From Thermotogaceae bacterium (lineage in GTDB: Bacteria > Thermotogota > Thermotogae > Thermotogales > Thermotogaceae): 57,777 nt of DNA. Shown piece after piece: positions 7,528 to 38,126 of this stretch (position 1 is the first letter of the stretch; every line of letters begins with the position of its first letter). The DNA lies in contig JALWSA010000057.1 of NCBI GenBank assembly GCA_026993805.1, positions 1 to 57,777 of the forward strand, read 5' to 3'. Both the position numbers and the translations under genes were made by a program. The notes beneath the pieces were generated by a model. It saw only the letters and a list, made by a program, of their open reading frames with translations, had not been told where the DNA came from and did no database searches.

Positions 7528-7950
7528 TCAGATGTTTATATCCAATCCGGATTTGTGGGTATCCCGGGCTATTTCGAGGGTATTTCCAGCTTTTTTCATG
7601 ACCTCTCTCCAGGTTCCAAGGAGCTCTTCGAGCATTGAACGAACTTCCTTGAAAGCCTCAGCGTCTTTTTTTACATTTCCGTTCAGAAGCCTCTGGAACA
7701 TGTAGTTGTAAAGGGCCCGGAGGTTTTGAGCAATCTGCCCGCCCCTCTGAACATCGAGGGACATGTTGAGCTCCATTATTATGTCCTCAACCTTTTTCAC
7801 CCTCTCGTTTACTCCTTTGTAGTCTTTCTTTTCAAGCAAGTCGAGAGCTTCGTTCAGAAGCTCTATGGATCTTTGATAGAGAAGTTCCACGAGTTTTGCG
7901 GGACTTGCGGTTTTGATCATATTTTCTATATAAGCGTTTTTGCTGTTCAA
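7528..7950 (-). CDS. fliS: Flagellar export chaperone FliS
   Basis: 140 residues, all helical, with the typical FliS opening 'NAYIENMIKTASPAKLVELLY' and the later 'AQNLRALYNYM' helix. FliS binds the C-terminus of flagellin in the cytoplasm, prevents early polymerisation and hands it to the export gate. TTG start at 7950, after AAGGGGGAATTTC. It lies 13 bases after an unknown protein gene and inside a run begun by alaS rather than a flagellar cluster. A FliD-like gene is found far away at 35.4-36.6 kb; no flagellin gene is in the window. Confidence 0.9.
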   Translation of the reverse strand: MNSKNAYIENMIKTASPAKLVELLYQRSIELLNEALDLLEKKDYKGVNERVKKVEDIIMELNMSLDVQRGGQIAQNLRALYNYMFQRLLNGNVKKDAEAFKEVRSMLEELLGTWREVMKKAGNTLEIARDTHKSGLDINI

Positions 7951-31788: not shown

Positions 31789-32751
31789 ATGAAGAAAGTT
31801 TTGGTGGTTGTCTTCGCTTTATTGATCTCACTCGCAGCGTTTTCCATGGCCTTTAAAGATGTCCCGAAGTCGCACTGGGCTTACGAAGCTGTGAATGCGC
31901 TTTCTGACTGGCATATTCTCACCGGCTTCGAAGATGGGACTTTCAGAGGTTCTGAAGTTGTTACGAGGTACCAGCTGGCTGTTGCACTTTATAGGGCCAT
32001 AGAGTATCTAAAGAGCCAGATCGGCGGTGCGGGAAGTGTGGGAACGACGGCTCTCCCAAGTGATAAATTAAGTCTGGCTTTCCAGAAGATAGCCAAAAAT
32101 GAGATAGCTATAGCAAATTTGGAGAAACTCATTGCGGATATGAGAAAGAAGATGGGAATGACACCCGTTCAGGCAGGTGTACATGCGGAGGATGTTAAGG
32201 CGGCTTTGGAGCTTGCGAAGGATGCAAAAAGCTTAGCAGAGGAAAATAAGGCTGCTATTGCAGCGTTGGATTCGAAGTTGCAAATGCTTGAGATGAATTT
32301 AAAAGCGGGTAAAGGGGAAGTGACGCTCCCAGAAGAAGTCAACAGGAAACTCGAAAACCTTCTTGCAACCGTTTCTGGGATGAAAACGGATCTATCCGAA
32401 ATTGATGTTTTAAAAGAGAGATATGGAAATCTTTCGAAGAAAGTGATTTACCTCGAGCAGCAGGTCAATGAAGCGAGCGGGAAGGCTGAAAAGGTAAAGG
32501 AAGAATTTGATGCTTTGAAAAAAGACTTCGAAGATCTCTCGAAGAAAGTGCAGGATCTTTCCACTAACCTCGGAAAGGTTGACGAGATTGGAAAGAAAGT
32601 AGGAAGTTTGGAAAGCAGGGTTAGCTCTTTGGAAGAGACAGTTAGAAACATGCCAAAGGCTGGTGGATTCAGCTTCTGGGATTTTCTTTCAATAGCTTCT
32701 ATGTTGATGTCGGTTGTGGCTTTGGTTTTTGTCTTTACAGTGGGGAAGTGA
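31789..32751 (+). CDS. Omp-alpha-like SLH/coiled-coil envelope rod protein, copy 1
   Basis: 320 residues. Signal peptide (1-21, 'MKKVLVVVFALLISLAAFSM'), one SLH domain at about 22-75 ('AFKDVPKSHWAYEAVNAL', 'FEDGTFRGSEVVTRYQLA'), a linker, then long coiled coil from about 95 to 290, and a C-terminal membrane helix ('FLSIASMLMSVVALVFVF'). This is the plan of Thermotoga Omp-alpha, which spans the periplasm with the SLH end on the cell wall and the hydrophobic end in the outer toga. ATG start with GAGGAGGGATATC. First of three paralogues in tandem. Confidence 0.85.
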   Translation: MKKVLVVVFALLISLAAFSMAFKDVPKSHWAYEAVNALSDWHILTGFEDGTFRGSEVVTRYQLAVALYRAIEYLKSQIGGAGSVGTTALPSDKLSLAFQKIAKNEIAIANLEKLIADMRKKMGMTPVQAGVHAEDVKAALELAKDAKSLAEENKAAIAALDSKLQMLEMNLKAGKGEVTLPEEVNRKLENLLATVSGMKTDLSEIDVLKERYGNLSKKVIYLEQQVNEASGKAEKVKEEFDALKKDFEDLSKKVQDLSTNLGKVDEIGKKVGSLESRVSSLEETVRNMPKAGGFSFWDFLSIASMLMSVVALVFVFTVGK

Positions 32752-32755
32752 AGAG

Positions 32756-32974
32756 ATGGAGAGATTTGCAAAGGCAGTTTCAAATGTTTTGAAGAGATTT
32801 GTTGATGCAGGCATGGAAGAGATAGATCTTTACGATGTGTGGATAGAGACTTCTATACCAATGGATATCATCGAAGAGGTTGTTAGGGAGAAGATGGCGG
32901 AGATCCCAGAAGGAGTTAAAGAGCTTAGTTTGAAGGGGAAGGTCATCTGGAGGAGGGAAGAACATGAAGAGTAG
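32756..32974 (+). CDS. Small unknown protein between SLH genes
   Basis: 72 residues from ATG 32756, with GGGGAAGTGAAGAG upstream. Acidic, mixed helix/strand, no signal peptide, cysteine or membrane segment, so apparently cytoplasmic although flanked by exported proteins. Contains 'DVWIETSIPMDIIEEVVREK'. It follows the first SLH gene by four bases and overlaps the second by eleven, so it is translated within the same message. No family recognised. Confidence 0.65.
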   Translation: MERFAKAVSNVLKRFVDAGMEEIDLYDVWIETSIPMDIIEEVVREKMAEIPEGVKELSLKGKVIWRREEHEE

Positions 32975-33920
32975 GGCGGTGATGCTCGCCCTGATTTTTT
33001 TTGCTGCAGTCTCCTTTTCAACGGCTTTTAAAGACGTTCCCATTAATCATTGGGCGTATGATGCTGTTATGAGTGTTTCGGAGTTGGGCATAATTTCAGG
33101 TTATCCTGATGGTACTTTTCGAGGAGTTGACTATGTCAGCAGGTATCAGCTGGCGGTGGCTATATATAGGACTATCCAGTACATAACAAAAGCTTTGGGA
33201 GCCCCCCAAGGAGGGGGTGTTGTTGGAAAGGGAGTTGTCGATGAGCTTGATAGGAAGATACAAAATTTGAAAGAAGTTCTTGCCAATTTGAAGAGTGATT
33301 ACGAAAGTAAGATGAGAGATGTTGACGCCAAGCTGACCCAGCTCAGCTTGGATGTTTCGGGGCTATCAGAAAGTTTCAGTCAAATCAGCGAAAAGTTAGA
33401 GAAGAAGTTGGCCACTCTTGATGGGAGTATTAAGAGCTACAGCCTGAGGGTTACCAAGGTTGAAAAGGATGTTCTCGATCTGAAAGACGATGTTAGTACT
33501 ATCAGGAATAGTCTCATAGCCATTGAAAAAGTGGCATCTAAGAATGAAACATCGGTAAAAGATCTGTACTCGAGAGTGAACATGTTAAATCTAACTGTGG
33601 ATTCAAGTCTGGTAGATTTGAGAAACGAATTCAAGTCAGATTTGAGAGAAGTGAAAGATGATTTGTTGAAATCGTTGAAGAAAACGGAGATAGCTGTTTC
33701 AAAGAACTCCAGTTCTCTTCTCATTTTAGAAAAAAATGTTAGTCAGCTCAGGGAGGAGGTTTTGACCAAGGCTTCCAACATGGATATGGCTAAAATATCA
33801 CAGCGTTTGAGTTCTCAAGAAGCGGATAGTAAAGTGCAGTGGGTTTTCATAATCCTTATATCTCTCGCCGTGATAGCAGAAGGTGTGTTCCTATACATCA
33901 ACGGAGGTGGAATTAGATGA
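32964..33920 (+). CDS. Omp-alpha-like SLH/coiled-coil envelope rod protein, copy 2
   Basis: 318 residues. Signal peptide 1-20 ('AVMLALIFFAAVSFSTA'), one SLH domain ('AFKDVPINHWAYDAVMSV', 'YPDGTFRGVDYVSRYQLA'), coiled coil from about 90 to 285, C-terminal membrane helix ('WVFIILISLAVIAEGVFLYI'). The SLH domain is close to its neighbours while the rod has diverged, so the paralogues probably form different fibres or spacers. ATG start after GGAGGAGGGAAGAAC; overlaps the small upstream gene by 11 bases and the next SLH gene by 4. Confidence 0.85.
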   Translation: MKSRAVMLALIFFAAVSFSTAFKDVPINHWAYDAVMSVSELGIISGYPDGTFRGVDYVSRYQLAVAIYRTIQYITKALGAPQGGGVVGKGVVDELDRKIQNLKEVLANLKSDYESKMRDVDAKLTQLSLDVSGLSESFSQISEKLEKKLATLDGSIKSYSLRVTKVEKDVLDLKDDVSTIRNSLIAIEKVASKNETSVKDLYSRVNMLNLTVDSSLVDLRNEFKSDLREVKDDLLKSLKKTEIAVSKNSSSLLILEKNVSQLREEVLTKASNMDMAKISQRLSSQEADSKVQWVFIILISLAVIAEGVFLYINGGGIR

Positions 33921-34921
33921 AAAAGTTTTGGGTTGTCTTAGGTGTAGTAGTGATGGCAGTGCAGCTTATGGCTTTCAAAGATGTTCCACGGTCACATTGG
34001 GCTTATAAGGCGGTTATTGCGCTTTCAAAATTGGGAATACTGACTGGATATCCTGATAACACTTTCAGAGGAGAAAATACCGTCTCAAGGTATCAACTTG
34101 CCTATGCTCTGTACAAAATGGTGATATACGTTCAAGAGTACGTTGAGAATGAAGTGAGTAATACGGATTATTTGGCATCATTGAAACGGGAACTCTCACG
34201 TATTTCTGACATGAGTGCAAAGGCTTACAAGTGGGCCATGGAAAATTCGGACGAGATTTCACGATTGAAATTGCGAATGGACGAAATGGAGAAGAAGATC
34301 GAGAGCGGAAGCGGCGAGGGTATTAGCAATGTTTTTGAGGAGATAGCGTCCTTGAAGAGTGAATTTGATCAGAAGCTTCAGGGGATTTCGGTTAGACTTG
34401 ATGGAAAATACTCGAATCTTGAGAAGCGTGTAAAGACATTAGAAGATAAGATCAGCAGTTTTGACTTTTCCCAAATTGTGGACTTCAAAAAGGCCATAGA
34501 AGATGTTAAAGGTGTGAGCTTGGATGTTGAGGTTTTGAGAAGGGATCTGGTGAGTGTTGAATCGAGCCTTGTCAATCTATCTGCTTCTATGACATCTCTT
34601 AAAGAAGCGTTTTCAAGTTTGAGAGAGGAAGTTTCAGAAGAGGTTAAGGAATACAGTACCAGTATAACAAGTAGCGTGACCGCACTTGCGGAAGCTCTTG
34701 GAAGTACTCAGGCATCTGTCACCACTCTCGGTTCTGATGTGCGCGTATTGAAAGAGACTACATCGAATTTGGAGAAAATGCTTAAAGATGATATAGGGGA
34801 GCTAAGGCGTGACGTAGACGAGCTTTACAAGAAGCGTTCATCCACGCAGCTTTATATCTTTTCATATCTGTTTTCACTTGTGCTGTTTGGCGTGGCTGTT
34901 TATATAGCAATTGCGTATTGA
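33917..34921 (+). CDS. Omp-alpha-like SLH/coiled-coil envelope rod protein, copy 3
   Basis: 334 residues. Signal peptide 1-18, SLH domain ('AFKDVPRSHWAYKAVIAL', 'YPDNTFRGENTVSRYQLA'), a long coiled coil from about 85 to 305 and a C-terminal membrane helix ('LYIFSYLFSLVLFGVAVYI'). Its serine-rich heptads ('TSLKEAFSSLREEVSEE') differ from those of copies 1 and 2. Start ATG overlaps the stop of copy 2 (ATGA) with GGAGGTGGAATTAG upstream, so synthesis of the two is coupled. Confidence 0.85.
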   Translation: MKKFWVVLGVVVMAVQLMAFKDVPRSHWAYKAVIALSKLGILTGYPDNTFRGENTVSRYQLAYALYKMVIYVQEYVENEVSNTDYLASLKRELSRISDMSAKAYKWAMENSDEISRLKLRMDEMEKKIESGSGEGISNVFEEIASLKSEFDQKLQGISVRLDGKYSNLEKRVKTLEDKISSFDFSQIVDFKKAIEDVKGVSLDVEVLRRDLVSVESSLVNLSASMTSLKEAFSSLREEVSEEVKEYSTSITSSVTALAEALGSTQASVTTLGSDVRVLKETTSNLEKMLKDDIGELRRDVDELYKKRSSTQLYIFSYLFSLVLFGVAVYIAIAY

Positions 34922-35366: not shown

Positions 35367-36602
35367 TTATGCGTAGGTGTAGGGGTTGTTCACGGAAAAG
35401 TATGTCATCATCATGTTGAGTGCGAGAAGTCTCTCCGTCATATAGGGGTTGTAGCTGTATGTGTAGTAATTTGAGAACGGGTTGTAGTTCGTGTTTTGGA
35501 AGAGCGCGTAGGTTGGAATGTTCCTCATAGCGTTTGCCATGTTTTGAGCGCTTGCAGCAGTGCTTGCGAACGCTGGCATGACGAGGTTTTGAATCGTTTC
35601 AGGGTTTTCCAAGGCTTGCTCGAACTGCTCCGTAATTTGCAAGCCGTTTTCAGTTGGTACTATGCCTATTCCCTGCATTATTGGGTTATTCCTTATCACG
35701 TTAAGAGAAGCTTCTATTGCTGGAGAATACTGTGCGAGATTTTGAGCTTGTTCGTATAAGTTGTTGAAGCTTTCGACAAAATTCTGAGCTGCTTCCCGGA
35801 TTTCCTGGGTGTTGTAGTTCACTTCAACCGTATACTCGCCTGTTTGTGTTGCCGTCAAGTTGACACCTTGTATGGCCGTTATCTCGTTGGTCGCATTTTC
35901 GTGTCTTACGCCATTAACTTCATAGATCAAGTTTTGAGCATTTTGCGTAATGTTTTGCAGGCCAGCGGCCTCAACGATGTTACCAGTTATGTCTTCTACC
36001 GTGAACGCGTTTTCTTCACCCGTTTCACCGGTTAAAACCAATCTCGCTTGAGAGCCTTGGACTTGAACCTCTGCTGTGATTCCAATTCCTGCTTCATTTA
36101 TCTGCTGGGCTAAGTTTGTCAGAACGTTCATGTTGTTCATTTCCTCAGTTACGTTTACAGTGAAGGTGTAATTGGTATTGTTGAGGTTTATTGAAATAGT
36201 GTTGGTACCCGTTTGGAAGTTGTTTTCGGTTGCGTTGAGCCAGGCTCCTGTATTGACTTGTGATTGTGCGAGTTGAGTGACGTTGATCTCGTAGCTTCCT
36301 ATGGGGGTGTTCTCTTCAACCGTTCCGGTTAATCCCTCACCGGAGATGGCGAGTGTTCTGCTTGAAAATACTGTTCCAAGATTCTCGGCTGCTGTTTGAA
36401 ACTCGTTTAAAGCGTTTTGATATCTCGTTACTTCTTGAGCGTATTCCTGAACATTGAAGCCCGTTGTGTAGATCGATGATATCGGCTGGTAGTAAAAAGA
36501 TGTGACGTTTTGTGATTGCTGAACAGTAGAAATAGGCTGCAGAGAACTAAGGAGCGTTGGGAAGTAGGTGTAATACCAATAGTTGTTCATTATCGGGTCC
36601 AT
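35367..36602 (-). CDS. FliD-like flagellar cap / hook-associated protein, lysine-free
   Basis: 411 residues. Blocks match FliD in order: 'FSSRTLAISG', 'GSYEINVTQLAQSQ', 'GITAEVQVQGSQARLVLTG', 'YEVNGVRHENATNEI', 'GEYTVEVNYNTQEI', and 'FVESFNNLYEQAQ'. The coiled ends typical of FliD are weak, and both termini are rich in Tyr, Asn and Phe. The composition is extraordinary: no lysine and no cysteine, only two aspartates and eight arginines, but many Asn, Gln, Thr and Glu. It is expected to be exported and to sit at a filament tip or form an adhesive. ATG 36602 with GGGGGTGG upstream. It follows the OPT gene by 54 bases. Confidence 0.65.
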   Translation of the reverse strand: MDPIMNNYWYYTYFPTLLSSLQPISTVQQSQNVTSFYYQPISSIYTTGFNVQEYAQEVTRYQNALNEFQTAAENLGTVFSSRTLAISGEGLTGTVEENTPIGSYEINVTQLAQSQVNTGAWLNATENNFQTGTNTISINLNNTNYTFTVNVTEEMNNMNVLTNLAQQINEAGIGITAEVQVQGSQARLVLTGETGEENAFTVEDITGNIVEAAGLQNITQNAQNLIYEVNGVRHENATNEITAIQGVNLTATQTGEYTVEVNYNTQEIREAAQNFVESFNNLYEQAQNLAQYSPAIEASLNVIRNNPIMQGIGIVPTENGLQITEQFEQALENPETIQNLVMPAFASTAASAQNMANAMRNIPTYALFQNTNYNPFSNYYTYSYNPYMTERLLALNMMMTYFSVNNPYTYA

Positions 36603-36656
36603 TACACCACCCCCTTTTCATTAAATATGATCGACTCAGGGGTGAAAAAGTTCAGA

Positions 36657-38126
36657 TCAAAACTTAGTAGGAAGCAGGAGTCCGATTATCACTCCCGTTA
36701 TACCCTCACCGCCCAGGAGACCAGAAGCTATTGCCATACCACTTTCTATATTACCACTTTTTGTTTTGTCTAAAATAATTCTTATCCCGCCCCCCAGAGC
36801 TACGGGCAGAGTTATGTAGAAAGGAAGATACATCCCTATTCCAAACGTGAGAGCAGGTATGTCAAAGAGTTGAAGGATAACTGCTGTCAGAATTCCAAGG
36901 GAGAATTCTTTTGCCACGAGGCCGCCAGAGATGAATTGTGCCACGGCACTTGCCTGGGGTACTGGAAAGAGATTTCCAGCACCAAATGCACCCGAGCCAT
37001 ACTTTGAATGAAGAGTGATAAGGACCCAGGAAGCCACAAAGACCCCCACCAGTGCTCCTAATGCCTCAGAAATGAGCTGAGCTCGTGGATTGGTTTTCAA
37101 AATATAACCTGTTTTCATGTCTTGCAGCGAGTCTCCGGCGATTCCAGTTGCTACAGCGATCACGGCAGCAGAGAACACCATGGATTTTACGTCCATGTCA
37201 ACGATGGCTCTCATTATCATTAGAACAATTATCGCGAAGACTTCCATTGGATCAATGCCGGTCGTTCCATCAACGGCCCCGGCCATATGGACTATGAAAA
37301 GTCCCAGAAGTGCGAGAAGGCCGCTTTCTACCACTCCCAAACCCGTGAGAGTCGAGAATATGAAGATCACTCCTATCACTATGAGATCTGTCTTGCTTAT
37401 AGCAGCGAACTTTTTTGCTTTGAAGAGTCCCTTCAGAAGCATTCCAATCCCGCCGCCTATGATCATCCCCAGACCGAACCTTTTCACAACATCACCGCAT
37501 GGTCCCAGAGCAATGGCTGTTATTCCACCGCCAAGCCAACTCATGGTATAAAGTCCGCCTATAATGAAACCTATTCCAACTGCCATTGGAAACATTCCAA
37601 AGCCCTTGTAAATCACCGGTATGATTCCAAGTCCATCTCTTAGATATGTGAAAAGAGCCGAAAGTCCCATAGAGGAAAATAGTGTGATAGCTTTTTTACC
37701 TCCTTCGTCACCTGCTTTCAAAGTTTCTGCGGCTGCTATTCCCATTGGGAATGGAAGATTCTGGTTTACGACGTATTCTCTCCTCGTGCTCATTGTCATC
37801 CCGACACCGAGTGCACTTCCTATGGCAGCTGCCAAAATCACACTCTTGTAGCCCATTGAGCCCTTTCCGAGCACCCATAGTGCGGGGATGGTAAAGGCGA
37901 GACCTCCAGCTACTAACCCCCCAGCTGATATGCCTGTATGAGCGACGTTTATCTCATGAAGAGATGCTTTGAAGAATTTCAGTATAAACATGGAAAAAAG
38001 AGCCGCAAAAACTGTTGGCCAAGGAAGAGCCCCCATTTTCAGTGCGATGTAAATAGAGCTCATGCTCACGAGGAATGAACCAACAGCGGAGACGATGAGA
38101 GCCTTTGTACTAAGATGTTTTTCCAC
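36657..38126 (-). CDS. OPT-family oligopeptide/metal-chelate transporter
   Basis: 489 residues with about fourteen hydrophobic segments. Family traits include the opening 'SIYIALKMGALPWPTVFAAL', 'TGISAGGLVAGGLAF' and 'TMSTRREYVVNQNLPFPMG', the last containing the N-x-x-F-P-x-G element common in OPT/YSL proteins. Members import small peptides or metal chelates by proton coupling; the substrate here is unknown. GTG start with AAGGGGGGCG upstream, 14 bases after the phosphate butyryltransferase gene, so it belongs to that run. Confidence 0.88.
   Translation of the reverse strand: MEKHLSTKALIVSAVGSFLVSMSSIYIALKMGALPWPTVFAALFSMFILKFFKASLHEINVAHTGISAGGLVAGGLAFTIPALWVLGKGSMGYKSVILAAAIGSALGVGMTMSTRREYVVNQNLPFPMGIAAAETLKAGDEGGKKAITLFSSMGLSALFTYLRDGLGIIPVIYKGFGMFPMAVGIGFIIGGLYTMSWLGGGITAIALGPCGDVVKRFGLGMIIGGGIGMLLKGLFKAKKFAAISKTDLIVIGVIFIFSTLTGLGVVESGLLALLGLFIVHMAGAVDGTTGIDPMEVFAIIVLMIMRAIVDMDVKSMVFSAAVIAVATGIAGDSLQDMKTGYILKTNPRAQLISEALGALVGVFVASWVLITLHSKYGSGAFGAGNLFPVPQASAVAQFISGGLVAKEFSLGILTAVILQLFDIPALTFGIGMYLPFYITLPVALGGGIRIILDKTKSGNIESGMAIASGLLGGEGITGVIIGLLLPTKF

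Follow-up and report, generated by a model that had tools for sequence, protein, structure and literature searches.

FliD is usually viewed as a single-job protein that builds the tip of the flagellar filament, with its D0 ends as the working parts. What, then, is a FliD-like protein without these ends, and why does it contain no lysine? Both questions are raised by a gene at 35367..36602 in the window, that is, the whole stretch of 57,777 nucleotides analysed here (Thermotogaceae bacterium, assembly GCA_026993805.1, contig JALWSA010000057.1). A first-pass annotation of this DNA gave the coordinates correctly but not the strand: the gene lies on the minus strand, and the plus strand of the interval is full of stops. 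In Salmonella and Campylobacter, the D0 ends form the lining of the cap cavity, keep hold of flagellin and determine the pentamer, and the capture and insertion of flagellin are the job of D0 (PMC12221982, PMC7316729).

The 411-residue translation contains 0 Lys, 0 Cys, 2 Asp, 1 His, 8 Arg and 2 Trp, and its commonest residues are Asn (56), Thr (47), Ala (36), Gln (35), Glu (34) and Tyr (26), so that Asp is scarce but Glu plentiful. The first-pass annotation had reported the same counts of Lys, Cys, Asp, His and Arg, together with the abundance of Asn, Gln, Thr, Tyr and Glu, and had rightly called the neighbouring proteins lysine-rich: the other 47 window genes, taken as longest open reading frames, average 8.06% Lys, 5.16% Asp, 3.06% Asn and 1.93% Gln, and the lowest Lys content among them is 5.1%. 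With these genes as the background (8.1% Lys), the probability of finding no lysine among 411 residues is about 1e-15. The cause is found at the protein level, because the GC content of the gene (44.4%) is that of the window (44.8%) and AAR triplets are abundant in both alternative frames of the coding strand (40 and 28), whereas the gene itself uses AAY (Asn) 56 times and AAR (Lys) never. Base composition and codon bias are thereby rejected as explanations, in line with the earlier view that base composition was not responsible. The gene is real, since a full-length homologue with 49% identity occurs in a sister genus in the same gene order. Directly before its ATG, a ribosome-binding-like stretch, AAAGGGGGTGG, can be read from the sequence (36607..36618, minus strand).

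The protein belongs to the FliD superfamily at the level of fold and lies outside the canonical FliD cap family. Pfam FliD_N matches it partially (profile positions 16-97; 32.2 bits against a gathering threshold of 24.8), and FliD_C matches over positions 1-77 of 236 only (residues 222-293; 39.1 bits against 25.4). The best NCBIfam FliD score is 67.9 bits, below the equivalog cut-off of 387, and a PDB sequence search returned FliD matches only. In an AlphaFold2 model built from a 28-row alignment, pLDDT is at least 90 over 266 residues, nearly all within 50-360. In a Foldseek comparison with the PDB, the best 37 matches were all FliD (E-values down to 1.5e-20). TMt is about 0.76 for the crystal structures of D2-D3; over whole chains, the TM-scores to FliD are only 0.4-0.6, because the hinges and the ends differ. 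The model thus predicts a FliD D1-D2-D3 fold in the same order as in the FliD/HAP2 cap (PF02465 and PF07195; E. coli 5h5v, Salmonella 9gnz, C. jejuni 6sih). The first-pass annotation had read FliD domains in order from the letters alone and had proposed a structural comparison with FliD D1-D3; the Pfam matches, the model and its 37 closest PDB folds agree with that reading. Along the minus strand, the modelled parts are the D1 N-terminal helix (residues 51-80, 36363..36452), the D2-D3 beta head (residues 82-263, 35814..36359) and the D1 C-terminal helices (residues 265-360, 35523..35810). Within the head, Y104, V108, QLA 110-112, A177 and G195 are conserved, and the YxxxVxQLA motif is shared with FliD/HAP2 caps, as are the absence of cysteine and the low lysine content.

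The FliD D0 parts are missing at both ends. A Tyr/Asn-rich tail (residues 1-47, 36462..36602, minus strand) stands in place of the D0 N-terminus; its pLDDT is below 50, the alignment finds no GxGSGLD motif there, and the FliD_N match begins beyond the start of the profile. At the other end, an Asn/Tyr/Phe/Met-rich tail (residues 370-411, 35370..35495, minus strand), most of it again with pLDDT below 50, replaces the D0 C-terminal helix. The earlier description of aromatic and Asn-rich termini without the D0 coiled coil is therefore upheld by alignment and model alike. The missing D0 ends are a property of the protein and not of the alignment, because a control, the canonical FliD of an actinomycete MAG modelled on the same alignment, reached a mean pLDDT of 89 with a confident C-terminal helix at 381-440. 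In each of the four members tested from Thermotogota and Bacillota, the FliD_N match likewise missed the start of the profile; it began at profile position 30-35 in the homologues and at 16 in the window protein. Since the tails are modelled at low confidence, it is possible that a partner induces their fold. The first Lys or Arg of the protein is R60; because no basic residue precedes it, a Sec/Tat-type n-region of the usual kind is absent.

Relatives of this protein are sparse in its own phylum. Any match was found in 5 of 103 Thermotogota genomes (a FliD_C match above cut-off occurs in 78 of the 103), and three of these are further members: G087 of the sister genus (409 aa, 49% identity), G088 of the same genus (an N-terminal fragment) and G053 of another family (415 aa, 28% identity). 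The fifth match, G004, was rejected, having 36 Lys and a far better FliD_C match. A scan of named genomes yielded one more clear member, L063 in a Bacillota MAG, and a sample of 391 genomes from the class of that MAG contained 14 genomes with members; three other matches in this sample were ordinary FliDs in fliD clusters. No relative was found on viral contigs. Like the window protein, the Clostridia proteins (L142, L146, L149, L151 and L063/L141) lack D0, often have an aromatic N-terminus, retain a FliD core and coexist with canonical FliD; they differ in their higher lysine content, in a C-terminal tail that often reads ...YSGMMFNxY, and in having glycan or NusG gene neighbours. The end of L063 and the start of L141, both in genome G103, carry the same 45-residue FliD-like stretch with one difference, and represent either a single gene broken up in assembly or two copies that are almost identical. 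Neither Pfam nor NCBIfam has a dedicated model for these D0-less proteins, and a search limited to open-licence literature, hence a weak negative, found no paper that deals with FliD paralogues lacking D0 or with flagellar proteins free of lysine.

How old is this group? In a tree of all alignment columns, a single branch separates the D0-less proteins of both Thermotogota and Clostridia from the canonical FliDs encoded in the same genomes (SH-aLRT 99). The missing ends cannot drive this split, because it was repeated on core columns alone (residues 50-300), with 100/98 support and in 200 of 200 bootstrap trees. The window protein does not group with the FliD of its own phylum, and a tree forcing the Thermotogota D0-less proteins together with canonical Thermotogota FliD was rejected (AU p 9.8e-5). 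A recent duplication of the genome's own FliD is rejected on the same AU test and on an identity of 20% in a non-significant BLASTP alignment. As judged from these sequence trees, the gene belongs to an old FliD side branch that is common to Thermotogota and Clostridia; where exactly the window protein belongs on its side is less certain, because some branches are long and its composition is odd. As a separate observation, the FliD of a Gallionella MAG (L103:7695-9134) has a Tyr/Pro-rich N-terminus without GxGSGLD and a fuller C-terminal domain, groups with canonical FliD, and may represent an independent change of D0.

Genome content links the side branch to flagella, and gene neighbourhoods mostly do not. 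The gene for FlhA, the flagellar export gate, and a canonical FliD are present in 18 of the 18 member genomes examined. In the class sample, flhA occurs in 147 of 391 genomes and in 14 of 14 with members, which gives P 7.5e-7 under an assumption of independence, with related species counted repeatedly. In one Bacillota MAG, the member gene is convergent with flgN-fliS-fliD. Elsewhere the gene lies outside flagellar clusters, in the window (where it is in no fliD operon) as in the sister genus, G053 and most Clostridia; this survey covered short flanks, and several of the member genomes are MAGs. The Clostridia genes L148, L152, L146 and L154 adjoin UDP-galactopyranose mutase or nusG rather than flagellar genes, and glycan genes are also among the neighbours of Clostridia members. 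Upstream of the window gene is an OPT-family transporter (36657..38126, minus strand), which we regard as context with no part in function; the order of transporter and FliD-like gene is kept in both sister-genus genomes. A beta-barrel neighbour in common between the window and G053 was considered and discarded for want of significant similarity. A FliS flagellin chaperone gene is found at 7528-7950, beside neither a flagellin gene, fliD nor the FliD-like gene.

The region before the gene contains a sigma28-like site, TGAACTTT-N11-GTCGATCA (36628..36654, minus strand), which agrees with the consensus at 12 of 16 positions and is the best among the 48 window genes. It is suggestive only; clear conservation was not found in relatives, and the Clostridia members look sigma70-driven. 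No known riboswitch or RNA leader was found upstream of the window gene or of most homologues. A purine riboswitch lies directly downstream of the Clostridia member L144, and the related Clostridia genes L143, L148 and L151 are preceded, between a TATAAT-like box and the FliD-like gene, by a common 5' leader, GTAACTAAA-GTG-CTA...CCCT-G-GCG..., that has no Rfam match.

Taken with the fold, these data point to an accessory flagellar protein that probably leaves the cell by way of the flagellar type III system and is presented at the tip or along the filament, and the first-pass suggestion of a specialised tip or surface protein is plausible. Such a protein would pass unfolded through the type III apparatus. 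It would be unable to insert flagellin as the canonical cap does, because D0, which insertion needs, is missing. In its final position (at the filament tip, close to it, or along the filament surface), the protein might use its head for contact with surfaces or contribute it to a mixed cap with FliD, and the aromatic, Asn-rich tails may bind a filament protein. A different function, as a surface or envelope protein outside the flagellum that has taken over the FliD head and co-occurs with flagella through common lifestyle or ancestry, would suit the mostly non-flagellar neighbourhoods and the glycan genes in Clostridia. We consider it unlikely, given FlhA and canonical FliD in every member genome examined, the lack of a Sec-type signal and the one member beside flgN-fliS-fliD.

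The first-pass annotation had proposed to look for a second, normal FliD in the genome. An ordinary FliD was found (G000:C39; 626 aa, 5.9% Lys) behind a FlaG-like open reading frame; it shares the FliD core with the window protein and differs in its full D0. The same genome encodes a second, short flagellin of 276 aa with 4 Lys (1.4%), 12.0% Asn and 9.1% Gln, found at G000:C57:102221-102601 (locus L051), outside the window and beside an ordinary flagellin. Second flagellins of the same length in this genome, G087 and G088 have 1.4-1.8% Lys, 12.0-12.7% Asn and 9.1-9.4% Gln, and all three genomes have both this flagellin and the FliD-like gene. Could this lysine-poor, Asn/Gln-rich flagellin build a second filament of which the window protein is the dedicated cap or tip partner? 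A common filament and a common environment would then account for the similar composition of the two proteins, and the match in three genomes speaks for this idea. We think it quite improbable, since a similar short flagellin occurs in G098, where the FliD-like gene is absent, and G053 combines the gene with ordinary flagellins. The protein moreover has no D0 ends, which a cap needs, and the second flagellin gene is far from it on the contig. A broader proposal, which we also hold to be improbable, joins this filament to the accessory reading: a widespread, undescribed flagellar family, with a FliD head and without the capping D0, would stand beside the true cap in Thermotogota and Clostridia with a second, non-capping function at the tip or surface, and here would join the second flagellin in a separate outer filament almost devoid of lysine. 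Should an old branch in two phyla have retained nothing but the display part, always in company with the true cap, FliD heads would have been reused as a non-capping flagellar component; the lysine-free member also serves as a natural test of which residues are dispensable to an exported flagellar protein.

Is the absence of lysine itself conserved? It is not, and very low or zero lysine is confined within the side branch to the window protein and the sister genus. The G087 homologue has 5 Lys (1.2%), the G088 fragment 3.7% Lys, and the G053 homologue 14 Lys (3.4%) with no Arg at all; most Clostridia members have 4.8-8.5%, and the range is about 9-13% for L144 and G103, with the L063/L141 fragments of the latter at 9-11%. 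Set beside FliDs, the window protein stands out less than beside its neighbours: canonical Thermotogota FliDs range from 2.8 to 7.7% and other FliDs from 1.05 to 6.4%. The lack of cysteine is ordinary for FliD, being found in 56 of 59 other FliDs. Because the homologues carry lysine from 1.2% upward, zero lysine is, on comparison of these sequences, the endpoint of a tendency within a single lineage, one that the short second flagellins of this genome, G087 and G088 also show; the zero-lysine state may reflect lineage-specific drift or selection within an exported-protein lineage already poor in Lys, Arg and Cys. The first-pass annotation had proposed that lysine modification or glycation is avoided in the heat. 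A selective disadvantage of lysine on hot exposed surfaces, through its glycation, acetylation or methylation, would agree with the 56 AAY and no AAR codons, and with the Q, Q, E, E and T found in the window protein at the five Lys sites of the sister homologue. Asn and Gln, however, are the residues most prone to deamidation by heat, and they make up 22% of the protein, so that heat hardening is an unlikely reason for the missing lysine. Arg is glycated as Lys is, and eight Arg are kept. With the trait unconserved and 5.9% Lys in the FliD of the same cell, we regard this explanation as very unlikely. That the gene is a degenerate FliD copy on its way to loss, for which the missing D0 at both ends and the patchy spread in Thermotogota might be cited, is scarcely credible for an old branch common to two phyla whose reading frame is open over 409-415 aa in three genera and whose head motifs are conserved.

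On the plus strand at 31789-34921 lie three tandem genes whose products have an N-terminal SLH domain, a long coiled coil and a C-terminal hydrophobic stretch, and which we take to resemble the outer-membrane-spacer (Omp-alpha) type of Thermotoga.
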